From positions 1-44,797 of the forward strand of contig WRPG01000042.1 of the NCBI GenBank assembly GCA_009773355.1: a DNA stretch of 44,797 bases. Reading direction: 5' to 3'. The notes under the pieces are model-generated. The model did not search any database and was not told where the DNA came from. It was given only the letters and a program-made list of their open reading frames with translations. How positions within the stretch are numbered: position 1 is the first letter of the stretch; every line of letters begins with the position of its first letter. Below, in pieces: positions 9,306-41,306 of the stretch. The translations under genes were made by a program, and so were the position numbers. Source of the DNA: Limisphaerales bacterium. Its GTDB lineage: Bacteria; Verrucomicrobiota; Verrucomicrobiia; Limisphaerales; SXTU01.

Positions 9306-9398
9306 GGCGTAATACGTAATGCGTAAAACGTAAGGACCAAAGAACCTCGGAACGCGCCCGGCGCTCCGCTTTACGCCTTACGTTTTACGCATTACGCC
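9305..9398. repeat. Palindromic element of the CGTAATGCGTAAAACGTAAGG family, copy 1
   Basis: The left arm (about 9305-9335, containing GCGTAATGCGTAAAACG) pairs with the right arm (9376-9398, CCTTACGTTTTACGCATT and on). The centre contains GGCGCTCCGC. A second copy with the same arms and the same central GGCGCTCCGC lies at 36379-36468. It sits between the stops of the RbsD-like gene and the convergent sigma gene, so it may also act as a two-way terminator. Confidence 0.88.
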
Positions 9399-15930: not shown

Positions 15931-16458
15931 AAGCGGTGCTCATATGCGGTTCAGAGTTCGTGGCCGTCGCGGCTGCCAAAAGGCGGCCGGCGGGCGACCG
16001 ATTTCCAATACAACGAACGAGTCCGGGCAGAAAGGACAGGGAGGATGATTTTCGGTCACGTTTTGGTGAAGCCGCCGAACGCGAAACCCGTGCCGGCGGC
16101 TTGCAACCGCCGCCCGTGGGAAACAACTGTTCGAGGCCGTGACACCGCTCTTTCCGGTCAAGGCGGAGAGGGAGAACGCAGCGCCGCAGCAAGCACGGGA
16201 ATTTTGTGTCGCCCACGCGAAGGTTTCGACTCCTCACCCCGGCCCGCTCCTCGTTCGAGGAGGAGGGGAGAATCTTGTGGGGAACGTCAACCCGGGACGG
16301 TGCCCTGGGCTATCATCTTGCCGCGCTTGCAGCGCTCAGGTTGGTGTTTGTGGCTGGCTTGAGCGGATGCCAGCGGCGGCGCGCCATCACAAAAGCACCG
16401 GAAGGAGGGATTTTTGGCGTAGCCCGGCGGGGAGGCGGGCCGCATCGTCACCCGCACT
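15931..16458. repeat. Gene-free 528 bp mosaic of dispersed repeats
   Basis: No gene is supported here. It holds, in order: a piece related to the 15206-15268 family (16020-16060, with GATGATTTTCGG); a copy of the seven-copy 7-3-7 hairpin (16095-16111, GGCGGCT-tgc-AACCGCC, one unpaired position); a CACCCCGGCCCGCTCCTCG segment with a CTCGTTCGAG palindrome near 16235-16275; and, from about 16280, a sequence of the type GGTGCCCTGGGCTATCATC. The pieces lie end to end without spacers. The window side facing the AHSA1 remnant suggests a recombination scar. Confidence 0.7.
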
Positions 16459-26742: not shown

Positions 26743-29700
26743 CTACTCGTTCGCGCTCATTTCGCGACCGCGAATTTCCCGAAACTGCCGGCTCCGCACG
26801 ATCATCTCCACAACCGTGCCGACGCGATGTTCGTTCGCCGCGAGCTGCTTCAGCATCTCGTCAAGCAACGGCTGGTCGCTCAACTGCACGCCGCGCCCGA
26901 GTGCGAAGCCCAGCAGCTTCCGGCAGAACTGACGCTCGAACGCCTCGCGCCGCGTCGTGAGCAGGTAAGTCCGCAGCCCGTCGAGGCCATCCAGCTCGGT
27001 GCCGTCCGCCGTTCGGGTGCGCGAGTCAATCGCCAGGCCGGCGGCGTCCTTCGCGCGCAGCCGACCGATGGCATCGTAGCGCTCCAGCGCGAAACCGAAC
27101 GGGTCAATGCGCGCGTGACAGCTCGCGCACTTCGGGTCACCGCTGTGCCGCTCGATGAGTGCGCGTTCGGTCAGGCCTGCGGGCGCTTCCTCGGGCAGCA
27201 CCGGCACGCCCTTGGGCGGACGCGGCAGGCGCTCGCCGAGCAGGGTTTCACTGAGCCAGTTGCCGCGCAGAATCGGACTGGTGCGCGAGGCGCCGCTTTG
27301 CTTCGCGAGCGTCGCACCAAAACCCAGCACGCCGCCGCGACCTTGCGCGCGCACGCCCTCGACGCGCCACCAGCCATCGTAGCTCGACATTCCGATGTCG
27401 AGTTTGGGTATGGTCGGATTGCGGTTTCCCGACTCGACATTGGAATGTCGAGCTACGATGCCGTAGTGCTTTGCCAGCGCGGCGTTGACGAAGGTGTAGT
27501 CCGCGTCCAGCAGCGCGAGCACCGAGCCGTCGCGTTGGAAGAGGTCGGTGAAGAAGCGGATCGGCTCCTCGTTCAACGCGCCGCGCACGGCGGTGAACGT
27601 CGGAAAGTGTCGCTCGCTTTTCTCGTCGAGCTTGTCGAGGTCGCGCGTGTGGAGCCACTGCGCGCCGAACTCCACCGCCAGCCGCCGCACGCGCGGGTCG
27701 CGCAACATCCGCCGTGTCTGCGCAGCAAGCACAGTGGGGTCGCGCAATTTGCCCGCCGCCGCGAGTGCGGCCAGCTCCGCGTCCGGTGCGGATGACCACA
27801 GGAAGTAACTCAGCCGCGTGGCCAGCTCGGTGTCGCTCACGGGCGACTGCTTCTTGCCGGGCGCGGGCTGCTCGAACTTGTAGAGGAAGGCCGGCGCGAC
27901 GAACACCCGCGCCAGCGTCATGCGAATGGCGGTTTCGTGCGGCAGCTCCTGCGTGCGGAGCTTGCGGTAGAGCGCGCGCAACTCGTCTTGTTCGCTGCGA
28001 CTCAGCGAGCGACGCCACGCCTTCGCCGCGAAACTCACCACGGCTTCAAGCTGCTTCGGCTCGGCGGCGAGCAGCTCTTTGCGGAAGACCTCGGCGCGTT
28101 GCTTGATTGGCTCGCGCATCGGCGTGAAGGCGCTCGGGTCGGCGTCCTGCGTGGCGTATTGCCAGAGCTGCTCGAAGGCGTCCACGAGCTTGAGCGGGCT
28201 GTGGCTGACGAAGTGCAGCCCGGCCCAGAGCCGCTCCAGCTCGGCGGTTTGCGCGTCGTCGAGCAGCAGGCGGCGGAGCTGGTCGTCCTCGCGGTAATAC
28301 AGCGTAAGCGTCACGACCTCGTCCACGGGGACAATCTTCGTGTAGCAGAGCGCGGCGGGGAAAAGCTGACGGAACTGGTCCAGCGCGGCCTCCGTGCGCT
28401 TGCGTGCCGTGCTGCCATCCGTGACGAGAATGGGTGTGTCCGAGCCGACGGGCCGCTCGCCATCGGACCATGTGCTCTTCCCGCCGAGCTCCTTCGCCGC
28501 GCCCGCCGCGAGGCCCGTGGCGCTGGCGGGCTTGGTCGTGAGCGCCTGCATTTGCACGCTGCCCTCCGCGCCGGTCTCGCGGTGCAGCGTGGCGGTGGCG
28601 ACAAACTCGCAGCCCTCGACGAGGTCGGCGGGCAGGCGCACTTCGAGGAGCGACGGCGCGCGCACGCAGAGGTTCGCAGCGGGCAGCGCGGAGCCGTTCG
28701 GGTGCTTGCCAAAAAGCGCGGAATCAATCCCCCACGTAGCAGCCGACGTGAGGAGGCTCTGACTGACTTGGGGTTTGGTTGGAGCCTCCTCACGTCGGCT
28801 GCTACCCAATTGGCTCTTGAATAGCGGGCCACCCAGCGCCGTGAGTTGGCGGTGGAGCACGGCGTCGGGCGCGTCCTTCGCGAGATTGGCCGGGCCGCTC
28901 GCCAACAACTTCTGCACGGACTCGGCGAGCCGACCCTTCTCCGCCGCGTCCGCAGCGGCGCGCCATTTGGCCAGCAACGAGCCAGCCGGGACGATGGAGT
29001 CCGCGCCGCCGCCGGAGTCCGGCTCGCTGTAGAAGTGCCAGACGCCCGGATTGCCCAAGCCGTCCGCGTGCGGGTTGCCCGCGAGGACGTTCGGCGAGAC
29101 ATCGCGCGCGAGGTTCCACCGCTTGCCGTCGGTGGCTTTGAGGTCGAGGTCCACCGCCGTCATGTCGCACGAGTGGTTGCCGTCGCGCGGGCCGATGACG
29201 AGCGAGAGCAAGTCGCCCGGTTGCACGGCCAGGTTTTCCACGGGCGGGACTTTCACCTCGCGCGCGCCCTGCGCCGTGCCGGCGGCGAGGCGCTGGCGCG
29301 TGCTGCCGCGCCGGAGCTCCAGCGACCACGTCACGCCATTGCCACACTCGGGATGTGCGTGCTGCACCACGGCCTCGACGCGCACGGTCGCGGCGGCCGG
29401 GCTGTTCCAGCCGATGCACACGCGCAGCTTCGGCGAGGGATGCACGCCGACGCTGTGCGGCTTCATGTGGCCGGGGATACGGACGGCGTTGTCGGAAGAA
29501 TTCGCGAGGACGCTCAACGCGTCCGCGCCGGTCCAGCCCTTGATGAAGTCGTAGTTGTTCGCGCTCTCCAGCTTCTTGGTCATGTGCGAGGTCACGCGCA
29601 CGGGGCCGCCGCCGATGCCGAGATAATCCAGCCACGCGTTGAGCAACGCCGGCTCGACGCCGTGCTTCTGAGCGAGGGCAGCCACGCCGCTGCGGTCGGG

Positions 29701-31071
29701 CAAGGCACTGGCTTCGTCTGCGGCGGTCAGGCACTTCGCCGCGCTGGCCGCGACACGCTCGCGCTGCGTTTGGAAGGCCAGCACCGCGTCGCGCACGTCG
29801 CGCAGGCGGAGGTCGGGGCGGCCCGGGGCGACGAGGCGCGGGTTTTCCCAGACGGCGAAGTCGTTCTCGTTGCCATCGCCCGCGTCGGAGGCGAGTAGGT
29901 AGAGGATGACTTCGTTGCCGTTCGCGGGCGCGGGGAGTTTCACACGGACTTCCTGCGAGGCGGCGAGCGGGACGACGGGCATTTGCCACGCGCTCGGCCC
30001 ATTACGCTTGCCGATGTGCCCGACGGTGGTGAAGCGCCACAAAGCCCGCTGCCACTGCGCGATGCTCACGGCGAGCGCGGGGGCGGCGGCGGGTTTGGCG
30101 TCGCGCCACTGAGCGCGGATGAGGTCGAGCACGAGCGAGGGTTGAGAGTCGTTCAGCGCGGTCCAGAGCGTGGTGAGATACTTGGCGTTGAGGCCGTGAT
30201 TCTTGGCGAGCGCAATTATGGCCGCGGTTGCCTCGTGCCGGCGGCTTGCAGCCGCCGCTCCGGAGCGTTCATTGCTGGGCGGCGACTGCAAGTCGCCGGC
30301 ACGGGTCGCGCGCAGTTCCAGCGTCGCGGCGAGATACTTCTCCAGCGGGAGGATGCCGCCGTCCTTGGTGTCGAACTTGATGCCCTGCAGGTTCACCGCC
30401 GTGCCGCCGCCCTTCTCGGAGAATCGCCCGTAGAAGGTGCGGATGGCGGCGAGGCGCTCCTCGGTCCAGTCGCGCTGCGACGTGCTCGGCGAGAAGGCGA
30501 GTCCGTCGGGCAACAGCGCGGCATGCGCGGCGAGGTCCTTCGCGGCGTCGAGATACTTCGTGAGCAGCGCGGGCGACATGACCAGCGCCGCACCGGCGTT
30601 TGAGAAGCCCTCGCCCGCCGCGCCGTCCACGGGGAACTCCCGCGCCGGGTCGAGCGCGGCAACGCCGGTGAGGTCGCGCACGGTGTAGGTGTATTCCGCG
30701 TTCGAGAGGCGGCGCAGCACGACGGGACCAGGGTCGCCCGCGTTGGCCTTCGCGATCTCGCCGAGCGTGCCGCGCACCCAGGCGACGAGCCTGGCCTTCT
30801 GCGCGGTGGAGAGCTGCGGCTTGTCCTTGGGCGGCATCTCGCCGAGTTCGAGCTGCTCCTCGACCTGCTGCCAGACCTTCGCATCGCGCTTCACGGCGTC
30901 GAGGGATTTGAAGCGCTCCAGGTCCAAGTCGCCTTTGTGATCCTTCGTCGAGTGGCACTTGTTGCAGAACTCGCTCAGGAGCGGGCGGATCTCCTTCTGA
31001 AAATCAGCGGCGACCAATCGCAACGAGCTGGCCAGCAGCAGCGCGGCCAGCGGAAACAGCGTTCGCTTCAT
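26743..31071 (-). CDS. DUF1592-type planctomycete cytochrome protein (DUF1587/1592/1588/1585)
   Basis: A very large (1442-residue) exported haem protein; most family members are 700-900. The start at 31071 gives a signal peptide (MKRTLFPLAALLLASSL), then the haem-c motif C36-NKCH40. DUF1587 (VLRRLSNAEYTYTVRDLTGV) follows. The C-terminal half has DUF1592 (ATRLSYFLWSSAPDAELAAL), DUF1588 (ADYTFVNAALAKHYGI ... CASCHARIDPFGFALE) with a second haem-like CxxCH, and DUF1585 (FCRKLLGFALGRGVQLSD). The middle 600 residues are not assigned. Three palindromic repeat elements sit in frame in the gene. The ATG overlaps the upstream sialidase-like stop by four bases. Role inferred: electron transfer or saccharide-linked oxidation in the periplasm. 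Confidence 0.9.
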   Translation of the reverse strand: MKRTLFPLAALLLASSLRLVAADFQKEIRPLLSEFCNKCHSTKDHKGDLDLERFKSLDAVKRDAKVWQQVEEQLELGEMPPKDKPQLSTAQKARLVAWVRGTLGEIAKANAGDPGPVVLRRLSNAEYTYTVRDLTGVAALDPAREFPVDGAAGEGFSNAGAALVMSPALLTKYLDAAKDLAAHAALLPDGLAFSPSTSQRDWTEERLAAIRTFYGRFSEKGGGTAVNLQGIKFDTKDGGILPLEKYLAATLELRATRAGDLQSPPSNERSGAAAASRRHEATAAIIALAKNHGLNAKYLTTLWTALNDSQPSLVLDLIRAQWRDAKPAAAPALAVSIAQWQRALWRFTTVGHIGKRNGPSAWQMPVVPLAASQEVRVKLPAPANGNEVILYLLASDAGDGNENDFAVWENPRLVAPGRPDLRLRDVRDAVLAFQTQRERVAASAAKCLTAADEASALPDRSGVAALAQKHGVEPALLNAWLDYLGIGGGPVRVTSHMTKKLESANNYDFIKGWTGADALSVLANSSDNAVRIPGHMKPHSVGVHPSPKLRVCIGWNSPAAATVRVEAVVQHAHPECGNGVTWSLELRRGSTRQRLAAGTAQGAREVKVPPVENLAVQPGDLLSLVIGPRDGNHSCDMTAVDLDLKATDGKRWNLARDVSPNVLAGNPHADGLGNPGVWHFYSEPDSGGGADSIVPAGSLLAKWRAAADAAEKGRLAESVQKLLASGPANLAKDAPDAVLHRQLTALGGPLFKSQLGSSRREEAPTKPQVSQSLLTSAATWGIDSALFGKHPNGSALPAANLCVRAPSLLEVRLPADLVEGCEFVATATLHRETGAEGSVQMQALTTKPASATGLAAGAAKELGGKSTWSDGERPVGSDTPILVTDGSTARKRTEAALDQFRQLFPAALCYTKIVPVDEVVTLTLYYREDDQLRRLLLDDAQTAELERLWAGLHFVSHSPLKLVDAFEQLWQYATQDADPSAFTPMREPIKQRAEVFRKELLAAEPKQLEAVVSFAAKAWRRSLSRSEQDELRALYRKLRTQELPHETAIRMTLARVFVAPAFLYKFEQPAPGKKQSPVSDTELATRLSYFLWSSAPDAELAALAAAGKLRDPTVLAAQTRRMLRDPRVRRLAVEFGAQWLHTRDLDKLDEKSERHFPTFTAVRGALNEEPIRFFTDLFQRDGSVLALLDADYTFVNAALAKHYGIVARHSNVESGNRNPTIPKLDIGMSSYDGWWRVEGVRAQGRGGVLGFGATLAKQSGASRTSPILRGNWLSETLLGERLPRPPKGVPVLPEEAPAGLTERALIERHSGDPKCASCHARIDPFGFALERYDAIGRLRAKDAAGLAIDSRTRTADGTELDGLDGLRTYLLTTRREAFERQFCRKLLGFALGRGVQLSDQPLLDEMLKQLAANEHRVGTVVEMIVRSRQFREIRGREMSANE
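27375..27460. repeat. In-frame palindromic element in DUF1592 gene (CATCGTAGCTCGACATTC family)
   Basis: Arms 27375-27402 and 27433-27460 pair at 27 of 28 positions (starting CATCGTAGCTCGACATTC), and each arm is itself a short hairpin (CTCGACAT/ATGTCGAG). The element codes for about 29 residues (VARHSNVES ... KLDIGMSSYD) near residue 1204-1232. They fall between AKHYGI and WWRVEGV, a place where other DUF1588 domains have only a short loop. Confidence 0.88.
28736..28805. repeat. In-frame palindromic element in DUF1592 gene (GTAGCAGCCGACGTGAGGAG family)
   Basis: Arms 28736-28759 and 28782-28805 are perfect 24-base inverted repeats with a 22-base loop. On the coding strand it gives GSSRREEAPTKPQVSQSLLT and on to SAATW (about residues 756-779). 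The sequence of the arms resembles, base by base, the inner pair of the intergenic mosaic at 2593-2669. The insertion lies in the unassigned middle of the protein. Confidence 0.9.
30235..30304. repeat. In-frame inverted pair of 7-3-7 hairpins in DUF1592 gene
   Basis: Two hairpins of the seven-copy family face each other: 30240-30256 GGCGGCT-tgc-AGCCGCC and 30281-30297 GGCGACT-gca-AGTCGCC, each flanked outward by the GTGCC/GGCAC tag. On the coding strand they give TRAGDLQSPPSNERSG and AAAASRRHEA (about residues 256-282). This is a BIME-like arrangement, but it is inside an open reading frame and keeps it open. Confidence 0.9.
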
Positions 31072-36378: not shown

Positions 36379-36468
36379 CGTAACGCGTAATGCGTAAAAC
36401 GTAAGGGCCACAGTATGTCCGGGTGCTCCGGGCGCTCCGCCTTACGTCTTACGCCTCACGTTTCACGT
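36379..36468. repeat. Palindromic element of the CGTAATGCGTAAAACGTAAGG family, copy 2
   Basis: Left arm 36379-36407 (containing CGTAATGCGTAAAACGTAAGG) pairs with right arm 36440-36468, imperfectly (CCTTACGTCTTACGCCTCAC). The centre shares GGCGCTCCGC with the copy at 9305-9398. It lies in the 214 bp between the divergent oxidoreductase and kinase genes, so promoters for both must lie around or within it. Confidence 0.85.
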
Positions 36469-36531: not shown

Positions 36532-39500
36532 ATGAGCACGACCTTGAGCCAGCCCGCCATCTGCCCCAACTGCGGCAAGCCGCTGCCCGCCTCCGCCCCG
36601 GCGGGCCTCTGCCCCGCCTGCCTGCTCGCACAGGGCATGGACACCGACCCCGGCGGCAAGCCCGGCCGCTTCCAGCAGCCGCCCGTCGAGGAAATCGCGC
36701 GGCTCTTCCCGAAGCTCGAAATCCTCGGCCTGCTCGGCGCGGGCGGGATGGGCGCGGTCTACAAGGCCCGGCAGCCGGCGCTGGACCGCTTCGTCGCGCT
36801 CAAGGTGCTGCCGCCGCAGGACAAGGCCGGCGCGGACTCCGCCGAGCGCTTCAACCGCGAGGCCCGCGCGCTGGCCCGCCTCAGCCACCCGAACATCGTC
36901 GCCGTGCATGAGTTCGGCTTCGCCCGTGCCGGCGGTTTGCAACCGCCGCCCACCGCGCGTGCCGGCGACTTCCAGTCGCCGCCCGCTGTGTCCCCTGCGA
37001 ACGCCCCCGACGGCGATTTCAAATCGCCGGCACGGTCCCAACCCGAAACCCCAAACTCCAAACCCGAAACTCCCGCTCCCGCCTTCCCCTACTTCATCAT
37101 GGAGTTCGTGGACGGCGCGAACCTCCGGCAGCTTGGCCGCGCCGCGCGCCTTTCGCCCCGCGAGGCCCTGCAAATCATCCCGCAAATCTGCGACGCCCTC
37201 CAATACGCCCACGACGAAGGTGTCGTCCACCGCGACATCAAGCCCGAGAACGTGCTCGTGGACCGCCGGGGCCGCGTGAAAATTGCCGACTTCGGCCTCG
37301 CCAAAATCTTCGGCCCCGACGGCGACGCGCTGCGACTCACGGCCGAAGGCCAGGTGATGGGCACTCCGCACTACATGGCCCCCGAGCAGGTCGAGCGCCC
37401 GCTCACAGTGGACCATCGCGCGGACATTTACTCGCTCGGCGTCGTCTTCTACGAGCTGCTCACGGGGGATTTGCCGCTGGGCAAATTTGCGCCGCCCTCG
37501 CGCAAGGTCTCCGTGGACGTGCGCCTCGACGACGTGGTTCTCCGCGCGCTGGAGAACGACCCCGCCCGCCGCTACCAGCAGGTGAGCGAGGTGAAGTCGC
37601 AGGTGGAAACGATCTCCAGCCAGCCCAATATCGCCCAACGCGGGGAAGTTCCAACTCCTCCGCCCATCCCGCCACCCGGCACCGGCCTATCCAAGGAAAC
37701 CGCCGGACGGCTTCCGATGCTCAGCCCCTTTCGACGCGCTACAGGCTGGGCGGTCTTCCTCACCGGACTTGCCGGGTTTGCGCTGCTCATCGGCCTGGCG
37801 ATGATGATTGGCGGCGCGGTTGTTTCGGAGGCCCTCCGCACGCGTCCGGTTATGACCGGGGCACAGCTTGCGGGCGTGCTCGGGCTTGTCCTGTGGTTCA
37901 GTTGGCGGCGCGCGCGGGCGTCGGTCGAGGAAACCAAAGGTGCCGACAACACCAAGTCCATCCTGCGGATCGCTTGGACCAACTTCTTGCTTGGGACAGT
38001 GATGGTCTGGCTGCATCTCGCCCCGCGTCTGCTCGGACGCACGCCGCAGGCATTGGAGGCGCAAATCACCGCGACGGGCCTGTCCCTTTTGGGCTGGATT
38101 GGGCTGGGGATGCTTTCGTTTGGCGTGCTGTGGTTGATGAGGAAACGCACGGGCACGCAGGGGTTCCTACGCTCGTTGGCGGCAATGAGCCTCGGGTTAT
38201 TCGTCACGGCGCACGGCATCTTCATTACGCAAGGCAACGCTTGGCATACCGACTCGCAGCCGCGTTTGATGGAGTGGCAGTTGGCATGGCTGGAGGCGCT
38301 CGGAGTGCTGGCGGGCTGGTGGGCTTTGGCAGCGATGCGAGGGCAGGTCGTCGGAATCGGCTGGCGGGTGCTGGCTGCGGTCGGCGCGCTGGCGGCGGTT
38401 GTCATGCCGATGCTGGCGGCGACCTGGGTTGGAGCCGGCCTGCTCATGCGCTGGTTTCCTGCGGTGCGGGATTGGGCGCAATGGGGCGAGAGCGCAGGCT
38501 TTCGGCTCACCTTGCTGAGTGCGGCCATTGTGGCGGTGGCAGGGGTCGGCCAGCGGGCTTGGAGTTGGTCCCAGGGGAAGCGGGAGTTGCCGGGCCACCG
38601 GCTGGGGCTGGCATTGGCCTGCCTAGTCGTGGCGTGGGTGGTGTCGCAGCATCATTCGCGGGTGCAGGCCTATGCCTCCGGCACGCGGCGCGCCGCCGAA
38701 CTACAGCCGGGCGACGTGCGGCTGTTCCAGACGCACACGACTCCCATCGGCTCGCAAGGGATGAGCTTCGCGGGCCGCGTGACGGGGTTGCGGCCGGGCT
38801 GGCGGCTCAACGCCGGGTGGGTGGTGCTGGACGGCAGCGGGGCTGGAACGGCCCAGGCAGGCACAAGGACAACCAACAACTTCCACTACATGTTCACCTT
38901 CCCCACGTCGTTTGCCTTGCGCCGACCACAACAGGTATCCAATCCACAACCTTGGACGGTGCCGTCACGCCAATGGGATCTATCGCCCGGGAAGCGCGAG
39001 ACCGTGATCGCCGTCACCAACTCAGCCGGCCAAAGCCTCGCGTGTTTCGTGGAGCTACTTCCCGATACCGCGCTGACGCCGCTCGGGAACTCGGCGGTGG
39101 CGGTCCAGCGCGGGGTTGAGCGCCAGCCAGATGGCCAGCCGATTCCCAGAAGCGCGGGCGTCTCGCTGACCGTTGCGCCACGTCACGTCGCTGCTGTTGG
39201 TGTGTTTCTGCGCGAACGTAACCGGCTGACGTCCTTGCCCGAACTGAGTGCGATGCTGGTCGCGCCAGCGGGCGAGCGGGTGAGCCGGGAAATTTCTTGG
39301 GAAGCGATGGTGACGGAAAACAGGGCAACCAATGTTCCTCCGCAAGTGCGGGTCCATGTGGGCGTGGCGGGCGAACTGAGTCGGCGCGCGAAGGCGGTGC
39401 TTCCCGACGCGTTGGCCGGATGCCGACTGGTGCCAGTCGGGTTCGGTCAGGGAGTGCTGCTGGCCGCTGGCGAGTTGCGCGAGTGGGTGCTCTTCGATTG

Positions 39501-40485
39501 CGTCCCCGTCGCGCGGGGCGGGCCTGCGACGAAAGGGGAGCTTGTCGTCCGCCTCGTCAGCCAGCCGCTCGCGGCGGATTGGCAGCCAGACTTGCTGCAA
39601 CCGCAATTCCAGCGCGGCACCAACTGGGCGCTGCTCATCCAACCGGACCCCAGCCGCCAAAATCAGTTCGCCAAAACTATTCCCGCCAACGTCCCCAGCC
39701 CGCGCGCGCCACGCGGGGAACTGACCTTGCAGTGGCATGACGTGTCGGTGCATCCGAACTCCGAGTTGATAGCGCAAGGGCCGGTTGCCGTGAGCGGCGG
39801 CGAGATGGTGCTCGGTCGGCTGCGCTGGCCAACCGGGCGAATCGAAGAATCCGAAGCCTCCGCGCGAAATCACAACACGGGTTTCCCGATCAGTTCTGCG
39901 CTGGGCGTCCACTTCGCCTTCCCCACGAACTTCCCGCTCGCCCTCAAGCAGCAAGCCGCCGCGCAGCTCAAGTCCATCAGCAACTCGAACCAGCCGCTCA
40001 CGTTGCTCGCGGGCCAGTGGCGGCCGGTCTTCAGCATCACCAACGCGGCCGGTGAGTCCGTCACGGGCGAGATGACGTTCAGCCCCGGCGTGCCCTCCAC
40101 CAAGATGGGCGAGGTGGAGCTGCATTTTCCGGCCAACCACCCGATGCAGGGACTCACGAGCGGCTCTCAACTAACGCTCGCCCTCCGCAGTGATGTTCCA
40201 CTCGGCTGCCGGTTGCTGGCCACGGCGGAGAGTCCAAGCAGCCTCAGAGTCTCGGCCACCGTCAATCGAATCTACCGTTCAGGAAAAATCACTGAACATG
40301 TCATCTGGTTTCTGAATCGGCCCCAGCCACGGGAGGTGATGGCAAACGCCGGTGCCCAAGTGCGCGCCTTTGCCACCCGCGATTCGCTGCGGCTGAAACT
40401 CGGCGAGCGCAAGGAAGTCTTCCGCTTCACCAATGACCGGGGCGAAACCTTCGCGGGCGCGCTGGAACTCATCGCTGTCCAGTGA
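36532..40485 (+). CDS. Very large membrane Ser/Thr protein kinase
   Basis: A 1317-residue Hanks-type kinase. The N-terminus has a zinc-ribbon-like CPNCGKPL...CPAC pair. The kinase domain (about 60-360) has GAGGMGAVY (69), the Lys of VALKVL (91), HRDIKPENVL (233), DFGLA (253) and MAPEQ (283-285). Between strands 4 and 5 it carries an insert (about residues 132-183) encoded by palindromic repeats. Eight or nine hydrophobic helices follow (about 403-715). The remaining 600 residues are probably extracytoplasmic, with at least three repeats ending in a T-N-x-x-G-E-x-x-x-G pattern. It might sense the envelope and act with the sigma factor, whose GTG start overlaps its stop (GTGA). Confidence 0.92.
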   Translation: MSTTLSQPAICPNCGKPLPASAPAGLCPACLLAQGMDTDPGGKPGRFQQPPVEEIARLFPKLEILGLLGAGGMGAVYKARQPALDRFVALKVLPPQDKAGADSAERFNREARALARLSHPNIVAVHEFGFARAGGLQPPPTARAGDFQSPPAVSPANAPDGDFKSPARSQPETPNSKPETPAPAFPYFIMEFVDGANLRQLGRAARLSPREALQIIPQICDALQYAHDEGVVHRDIKPENVLVDRRGRVKIADFGLAKIFGPDGDALRLTAEGQVMGTPHYMAPEQVERPLTVDHRADIYSLGVVFYELLTGDLPLGKFAPPSRKVSVDVRLDDVVLRALENDPARRYQQVSEVKSQVETISSQPNIAQRGEVPTPPPIPPPGTGLSKETAGRLPMLSPFRRATGWAVFLTGLAGFALLIGLAMMIGGAVVSEALRTRPVMTGAQLAGVLGLVLWFSWRRARASVEETKGADNTKSILRIAWTNFLLGTVMVWLHLAPRLLGRTPQALEAQITATGLSLLGWIGLGMLSFGVLWLMRKRTGTQGFLRSLAAMSLGLFVTAHGIFITQGNAWHTDSQPRLMEWQLAWLEALGVLAGWWALAAMRGQVVGIGWRVLAAVGALAAVVMPMLAATWVGAGLLMRWFPAVRDWAQWGESAGFRLTLLSAAIVAVAGVGQRAWSWSQGKRELPGHRLGLALACLVVAWVVSQHHSRVQAYASGTRRAAELQPGDVRLFQTHTTPIGSQGMSFAGRVTGLRPGWRLNAGWVVLDGSGAGTAQAGTRTTNNFHYMFTFPTSFALRRPQQVSNPQPWTVPSRQWDLSPGKRETVIAVTNSAGQSLACFVELLPDTALTPLGNSAVAVQRGVERQPDGQPIPRSAGVSLTVAPRHVAAVGVFLRERNRLTSLPELSAMLVAPAGERVSREISWEAMVTENRATNVPPQVRVHVGVAGELSRRAKAVLPDALAGCRLVPVGFGQGVLLAAGELREWVLFDCVPVARGGPATKGELVVRLVSQPLAADWQPDLLQPQFQRGTNWALLIQPDPSRQNQFAKTIPANVPSPRAPRGELTLQWHDVSVHPNSELIAQGPVAVSGGEMVLGRLRWPTGRIEESEASARNHNTGFPISSALGVHFAFPTNFPLALKQQAAAQLKSISNSNQPLTLLAGQWRPVFSITNAAGESVTGEMTFSPGVPSTKMGEVELHFPANHPMQGLTSGSQLTLALRSDVPLGCRLLATAESPSSLRVSATVNRIYRSGKITEHVIWFLNRPQPREVMANAGAQVRAFATRDSLRLKLGERKEVFRFTNDRGETFAGALELIAVQ
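36926..37070. repeat. In-frame cluster of three 7-3-7 hairpins plus a 27 bp repeat in the kinase gene
   Basis: The hairpins are 36931-36947 GGCGGTT-tgc-AACCGCC, 36964-36980 GGCGACT-tcc-AGTCGCC and 37012-37028 GGCGATT-tca-AATCGCC (the last in opposite orientation, with GGCAC following). They are joined by the 27 bp block at 37044-37070, which also occurs at 7744-7770. The translation is RAGGLQPP, RAGDFQSPP, DGDFKSPAR and PNSKPETP. In other kinases strand 4 (IVAVHEFG) and strand 5 (PYFIMEFVDG) are separated by only a few residues. Confidence 0.92.
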
Positions 40486-41283: not shown

Positions 41284-41306
41284 CGGCGGTTGCAAACCGC
41301 CGGCAC
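41284..41306. repeat. 7-3-7 hairpin, intergenic copy
   Basis: 41285-41301 reads GGCGGTT-gca-AACCGCC, followed by GGCAC (41302-41306), so it lies in the reverse orientation. It is one of seven copies in the window. It lies in the 113 bp between the sigma gene and the convergent GNAT gene and could also act as a terminator. Confidence 0.88.

Follow-up and report, generated by a model that had tools for sequence, protein, structure and literature searches.

The 44,797-nt stretch of DNA analysed here (the window) contains, on its reverse strand, a gene for a protein with DUF1587, DUF1592, DUF1588, DUF1585 and DUF1595 domains (Pfam PSD4, PSCyt3, PSD3, PSD2, PSD5, PSCyt1). Inside this DUF1592/PSD4-type gene lies a 68-nt head-to-head pair of perfect hairpins, GTGCC...GGCAC, which we assign to a repeat family termed F1 (Table 1). 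The open frame of the gene runs through the insert, TRAGDLQSPPSNERSGAAAASRRHEA, and on the basis of that open frame the insert would be translated. Folded alone, each hairpin forms an 8-bp stem capped by a 3-nt loop, with its GTGC tag unpaired; the complete element, folded as DNA, gives z = -7.7 relative to shuffles. An earlier, sequence-only reading of the window had described two hairpins facing each other within coding sequence and seven such hairpins overall. Both of the former were found, and all seven were recovered, compared to 0.27 expected by chance. The pair had been labelled BIME-like, BIME being an E. coli term for a mosaic of REPs with linker motifs. This label is inappropriate for a different organism and sequence, and REPIN-like head-to-head dimer suits better.

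Table 1. Coordinates of the host gene and palindromic elements in the window
Feature	Position	Strand	Sequence	Remarks
Host gene	26743-31071	-		ATG at 31071; PSD/PSCyt cytochrome-c-type protein
F3 element, GTAG-tagged head-to-head dimer	27379-27456	.	GTAGCTCGACATTCCAATGTCGAG	In frame (ARHSNVES...LDIGMSSY)
F2 element, GTAG-tagged head-to-head dimer	28736-28805	.	GTAGCAGCCGACGTGAGGAGGCTC	In frame (SSRREEAPTKPQVSQSLLTSAAT)
F1 (GTGC) head-to-head hairpin dimer	30235-30302	.		In frame; encodes (T)RAGDLQSPPSNERSGAAAASRRH
Left hairpin of the F1 dimer	30235-30257	+	GTGCCGGCGGCTTGCAGCCGCCG	GTGC tag + CGGCGGCT/TGC/AGCCGCCG
Right hairpin of the F1 dimer	30280-30302	-	GTGCCGGCGACTTGCAGTCGCCG	GTGC tag + CGGCGACT/TGC/AGTCGCCG
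Second in-frame F1 element, triple (+,+,-)	36926-37033	.		Ser/Thr protein kinase gene 36532-40485 (+)
Single F1 hairpin	16090-16111	+		Flanks not coding by codon score
Single F1 hairpin	41285-41306	-		Flanks not clearly coding

Three palindromic families (F1, F2 and F3) are represented in this one gene. Orthologues lack the F3 insert. The F2 insert is shared with G004. Three other families of the order also have orthologues with F2-like inserts at the matching position (L042, L044 and L053), and these inserts are either old or arose repeatedly.

No F1 was found at the DUF1592 site in the aligned orthologues, either within the genus (mostly 75–88% identity) or in other families. This is the comparison that the sequence-only reading had proposed, with residues conserved across families as the outcome that would speak against an insertion, and no such conservation was seen. 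Between its conserved YL and KYL motifs, the protein has a linker of 59 residues, compared to 38 in most orthologues; relative to the latter, the net gain is exactly 21 residues (470 versus 449 for the larger fragment), fewer than the ~27 estimated earlier. As judged from these alignments, the insertion of F1 at 30235-30302 is recent and lineage-specific. In two congeners the same loop carries other additions, and the one in G007 is an in-frame inverted repeat of a different family. Because of these additions, one of them a different palindromic repeat, the loop can be regarded as a permissive landing site; it is variable and probably lies at the surface. In an AlphaFold model of the N-terminal part of the protein, a low-confidence stretch (237–245) falls within the insert, between two helices. 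This weakly supports the disordered loop that had been predicted, in a model that is poor overall (mean pLDDT 57) and too poor for placing the loop. We also sought a constant insertion length or target-site duplication by comparison with empty sites. No exact duplication or fixed length emerged, because the linkers flanking the site differ as well, and net insert lengths taken from the alignments are 63, 78 or 126 nt at different sites.

F1 is abundant in the genome from which the window comes (G000, a 6.16-Mb draft in 162 contigs), with 253 hairpins at up to one mismatch, compared to none for a reversed control pattern. The family is present in 10 of the 11 genomes of the genus; among 47 other genomes of the order, 4 contain it, with one to three copies each, and the named GTDB records that carry it are mostly Verrucomicrobiota MAGs. 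F1 is therefore nearly confined to one Verrucomicrobiota genus. In ~414 kb of this genome sampled around F1 elements, all 107 pairs are head-to-head (+-) and none is tail-to-tail. There are two main length classes, 66–75 nt and 93–97 nt (96 being the commonest). The unpaired tag, GTGC, is neither the GTAG of the GTAG REP superfamily nor the CGTC of the CGTC REP superfamily and RPEs.

To classify F1 positions, we applied a home-made codon-usage score to both flanks, which falls short of full annotation and placed 129 of the 130 sampled elements. Thirty-five are in frame in one gene. Four have coding flanks on one strand but not in one frame, three have flanks in the same frame but with a stop, and the remainder are mostly beside or between genes by this score. 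The hosts include UvrB, a UvrD-type helicase, KsgA, Lnt, CheA, glycogen debranching enzyme, GH31, an M20 peptidase, three MFS transporters, ApbE and two kinases. As with Rickettsia palindromic elements (RPEs), then, F1 is found in frame in unrelated genes and is absent from orthologues in congeners. Short dimers (66–75 nt) are in frame far more often than long ones (93–97 nt) (24/52 versus 4/48, Fisher P = 4e-5), and the long class is rarely in frame even though its commonest length, 96 nt, is divisible by three. Stop codons explain this avoidance only in part (4.75 versus 5.27 open frames of 6).

The codon phase of the 35 in-frame copies is strongly biased. Twenty-eight are read as RAGDLQSP, six as VPATCSRR and one in the third phase (P = 2e-8). 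Stop codons were ruled out as the cause, the three phases being open at 0.89, 0.88 and 0.86. The favoured phase has the fewest cysteines, and the bias stems either from tolerance or from a preference for targets that depends on codon phase. The claim that F1 is read in the same phase in unrelated genes thus holds genome-wide, while its companion, that the orientation is also the same, is little informative, as an inverted dimer is alike on both strands. The peptide had further been said to match that of the kinase insert in the window, which congeners lack. Left arm and phase do agree (RAGGLQPP / RAGDFQSPP); the right arms do not, with GDFKSPAR in the kinase and AAAASRRH in the DUF1592 protein. 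The kinase gene of the window and a different kinase gene (L127:1494-1565) carry F1 at an equivalent place, after HPNIV.VH.FGFA and ahead of PETPNS-type linkers, where congeners have no F1.

Searches with chimeric protein queries, combined with that for DUF1592, yielded 23 comparable in-frame sites, and at all 23 F1 is missing from at least one genome searched. (Loci L293 and L294, from one comparison with no assigned genome, were excluded from the evidence.) F1 is probably mobile; from species to species its presence at a site differs. Some sites are held in common, namely M20 with G001, UvrB with G004, ApbE with G003 and GH31 with G001 and G010. At one MFS site, G001 has a 27-nt perfect monomer versus 72 nt in this genome, probably a decay product that keeps the frame. 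G010 has a probable decayed copy in KsgA; copies in relatives were found by pattern, such that decayed ones are under-counted and conserved arms favoured. In a KsgA-like gene of this genome (L078:1539-1560), a single F1 hairpin stands in place of part of a linker, and the NLPY-type motif reads FDVPY here and NLPYS in G004. Other palindromic families occupy some F1-used loops in other species. Examples in frame are GGAGCGCCGAGCATCGCTCGGC and GGACGCCCACGTCCG, at the L088 2088 site in G004 (L321) and the L088 3872 site in G010 (L185), respectively.

These data very probably mean that a REPIN-like, non-autonomous repeat, F1, was inserted into a variable loop of the DUF1592 protein after the split from the sequenced congeners, and that it survives there because the frame is kept and the peptide tolerated. 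The element would move as single-stranded DNA by means of an enzyme of RAYT type (TnpA_REP) that works in trans or has since disappeared. Purifying selection would clear out-of-frame insertions and those in a harmful phase, and hairpin-templated polymerase switching may later keep the arms palindromic.

The last of these steps bears on what is retained once F1 sits in a gene. In six comparisons between species, covering the four full-length sites that are shared, we counted eight compensatory stem-pair changes and no uncompensated double change, although the GH31 trio enters three times and hence the eight are not all independent. Differences are rare at invariant arm positions (3/192) and frequent in the interior (49/172), and one loop is inverted. 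Every compensatory change affects one of the two family-variable stem pairs, and the changes alter residues (D/G, S/P). The peptide is altered while the arms stay palindromic; therefore, it is the DNA palindrome, not the peptide, that persists. Arm homogenization and inversion of the spacer or loop are products of template switching described in parts of two published studies (PMC8604942; PMC8794818). A serious alternative is exchange between copies, because all the compensatory changes lie on family-variable pairs.

A more specific version of events can be put forward tentatively. F1 may exist in two forms, a long one restricted to the space between genes and a short one that is a mobile element compatible with coding, its arms giving a tolerated, low-cysteine peptide in one phase. 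Within genes, processes at the DNA level (arm exchange, template switching or a transposase acting in trans) would then keep the palindrome at the peptide's expense.

It is also conceivable, but unlikely, that palindromes in genes are kept for a hairpin function in RNA or DNA, such as the mRNA stability, pausing or gyrase and nucleoid binding proposed for REPs, with selection producing the compensatory changes. Stem covariation is indeed near-perfect (genome-wide, the two variable pairs are 97–99% Watson-Crick versus 51–56% expected), and at shared sites the arms are conserved more than the interior. Nonetheless, changes confined to family-variable pairs are fitted by template switching or arm exchange too, the loop inversion at one site is a template-switch signature, and the presence of F1 among congeners is patchy.

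Even less can be said for adaptive addition to proteins, in which selection favours the RAGDLQSP peptide and the short class represents a mobile peptide adapted to coding sequence. We regard this as very improbable despite the strong phase bias and the enrichment of the short class in genes. The favoured phase has the fewest cysteines, so the bias could arise from simple tolerance; at shared inserts the peptide changes and the palindrome is kept, with interiors diverging fast; and the loops have taken in several repeat families that are not related. That the insert is an old functional part of DUF1592 proteins, palindromic by chance, is scarcely credible and has been refuted by comparing orthologues. 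The gene does look intact, with its frame open across the insert, but aligned orthologues are all without the insert, most with a shorter linker, and the F1 sequence also occurs in many unrelated genes and between genes. An assembly or binning artefact can be set aside with similar assurance, for although the source is a draft in 162 contigs, F1 and several identical insertion sites are present in separately assembled congeners and the coding flanks remain in frame.

With its GTGC tag and the absence of a neighbouring RAYT, the F1 family raises the question of which enzyme moves it. We searched the 11 genomes of the genus for RAYT/Y1 transposases (Pfam PF01797, NCBIfam NF047646) and found no F1 within ~1.5 kb of one. 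F3 copies, by contrast, lie on both sides of the RAYT gene at C27:210111 (L003/L207), the RAYT at C27:165347 is flanked by F4, and a RAYT-like gene in G002 is flanked by F2. This genome has a further RAYT at C63:33496. In this genome, F2–F4 follow the REPIN-RAYT pattern and F1 is the exception. One caveat here is that the stretches were chosen for F1, and hence counts of F2–F4 are not unbiased. At C27:165347 (L002/L195), where F4 repeats lie on both sides, the RAYT domain sits in a 599-aa open frame with a proline-racemase-like start, possibly a fusion or a chance open frame.

Palindromic repeats in frame within genes have been reported since 2000, the Rickettsia elements being the classic case (Ogata et al. 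2000). F1 resembles those elements in being palindromic and in frame in unrelated genes, and differs from them in tag, sequence, size and phylum. RPEs about 150 bp long code for a conserved peptide (PMC10969869), and RPE-4 and RPE-6 are assigned to the CGTC REPs in part of the survey of Di Nocera et al. 2013 (PMC3733652). Passages of the same survey describe intragenic REP dimers that typically add 20–30 residues and are most abundant in Opitutus terrae. The GTAG REP dimers of O. terrae described there are like F1 in belonging to Verrucomicrobiota, lying in frame in genes and having DNA repair hosts, but their tag is GTAG (GTGG in most GTAG-20 elements) rather than GTGC and their stem is different; no GTGC family is named in those passages. 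With the REPINs and RAYTs of Bertels and Rainey 2011 (PMC3116915), F1 shares head-to-head hairpins, preferred spacings, conserved arms, a variable interior and compensatory changes. The REPs of P. fluorescens SBW25, however, are nearly all extragenic, with 14 of 1067 16-mers overlapping genes (PMC3116915); of the classified F1 elements, 35 of 129 are in frame in genes. REPINs have a linked RAYT flanked by its own REP, whereas F1 has no adjacent RAYT in the genus. F1 is thus REPIN-like, yet it departs from such families on two membership tests, since it has neither a GTAG or CGTC tag nor an adjacent RAYT. Template switching in coding inverted repeats, as presented in part of PMC8604942, is like F1 in showing arm homogenization and spacer inversion inside coding sequence, and unlike it in concerning yeast genes, not mobile repeats. 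F1 is best called a new, GTGC-tagged, REPIN-like family; in-frame palindromic insertion itself is already known. Few systems permit a comparative test of peptide versus palindrome retention. This one genus has in-frame copies by the dozen, sister species whose sites are empty, diverged shared copies and several repeat families that use the same loops, so that phase choice, arm maintenance and the decay of a dimer into a 27-nt monomer can be measured.

The window also holds a further repeat pair, CGTAATACGTAATGCGTAAAACGTAAGG..., at 9308-9396 and 36379-36467, of 89 nt and 76% identity.
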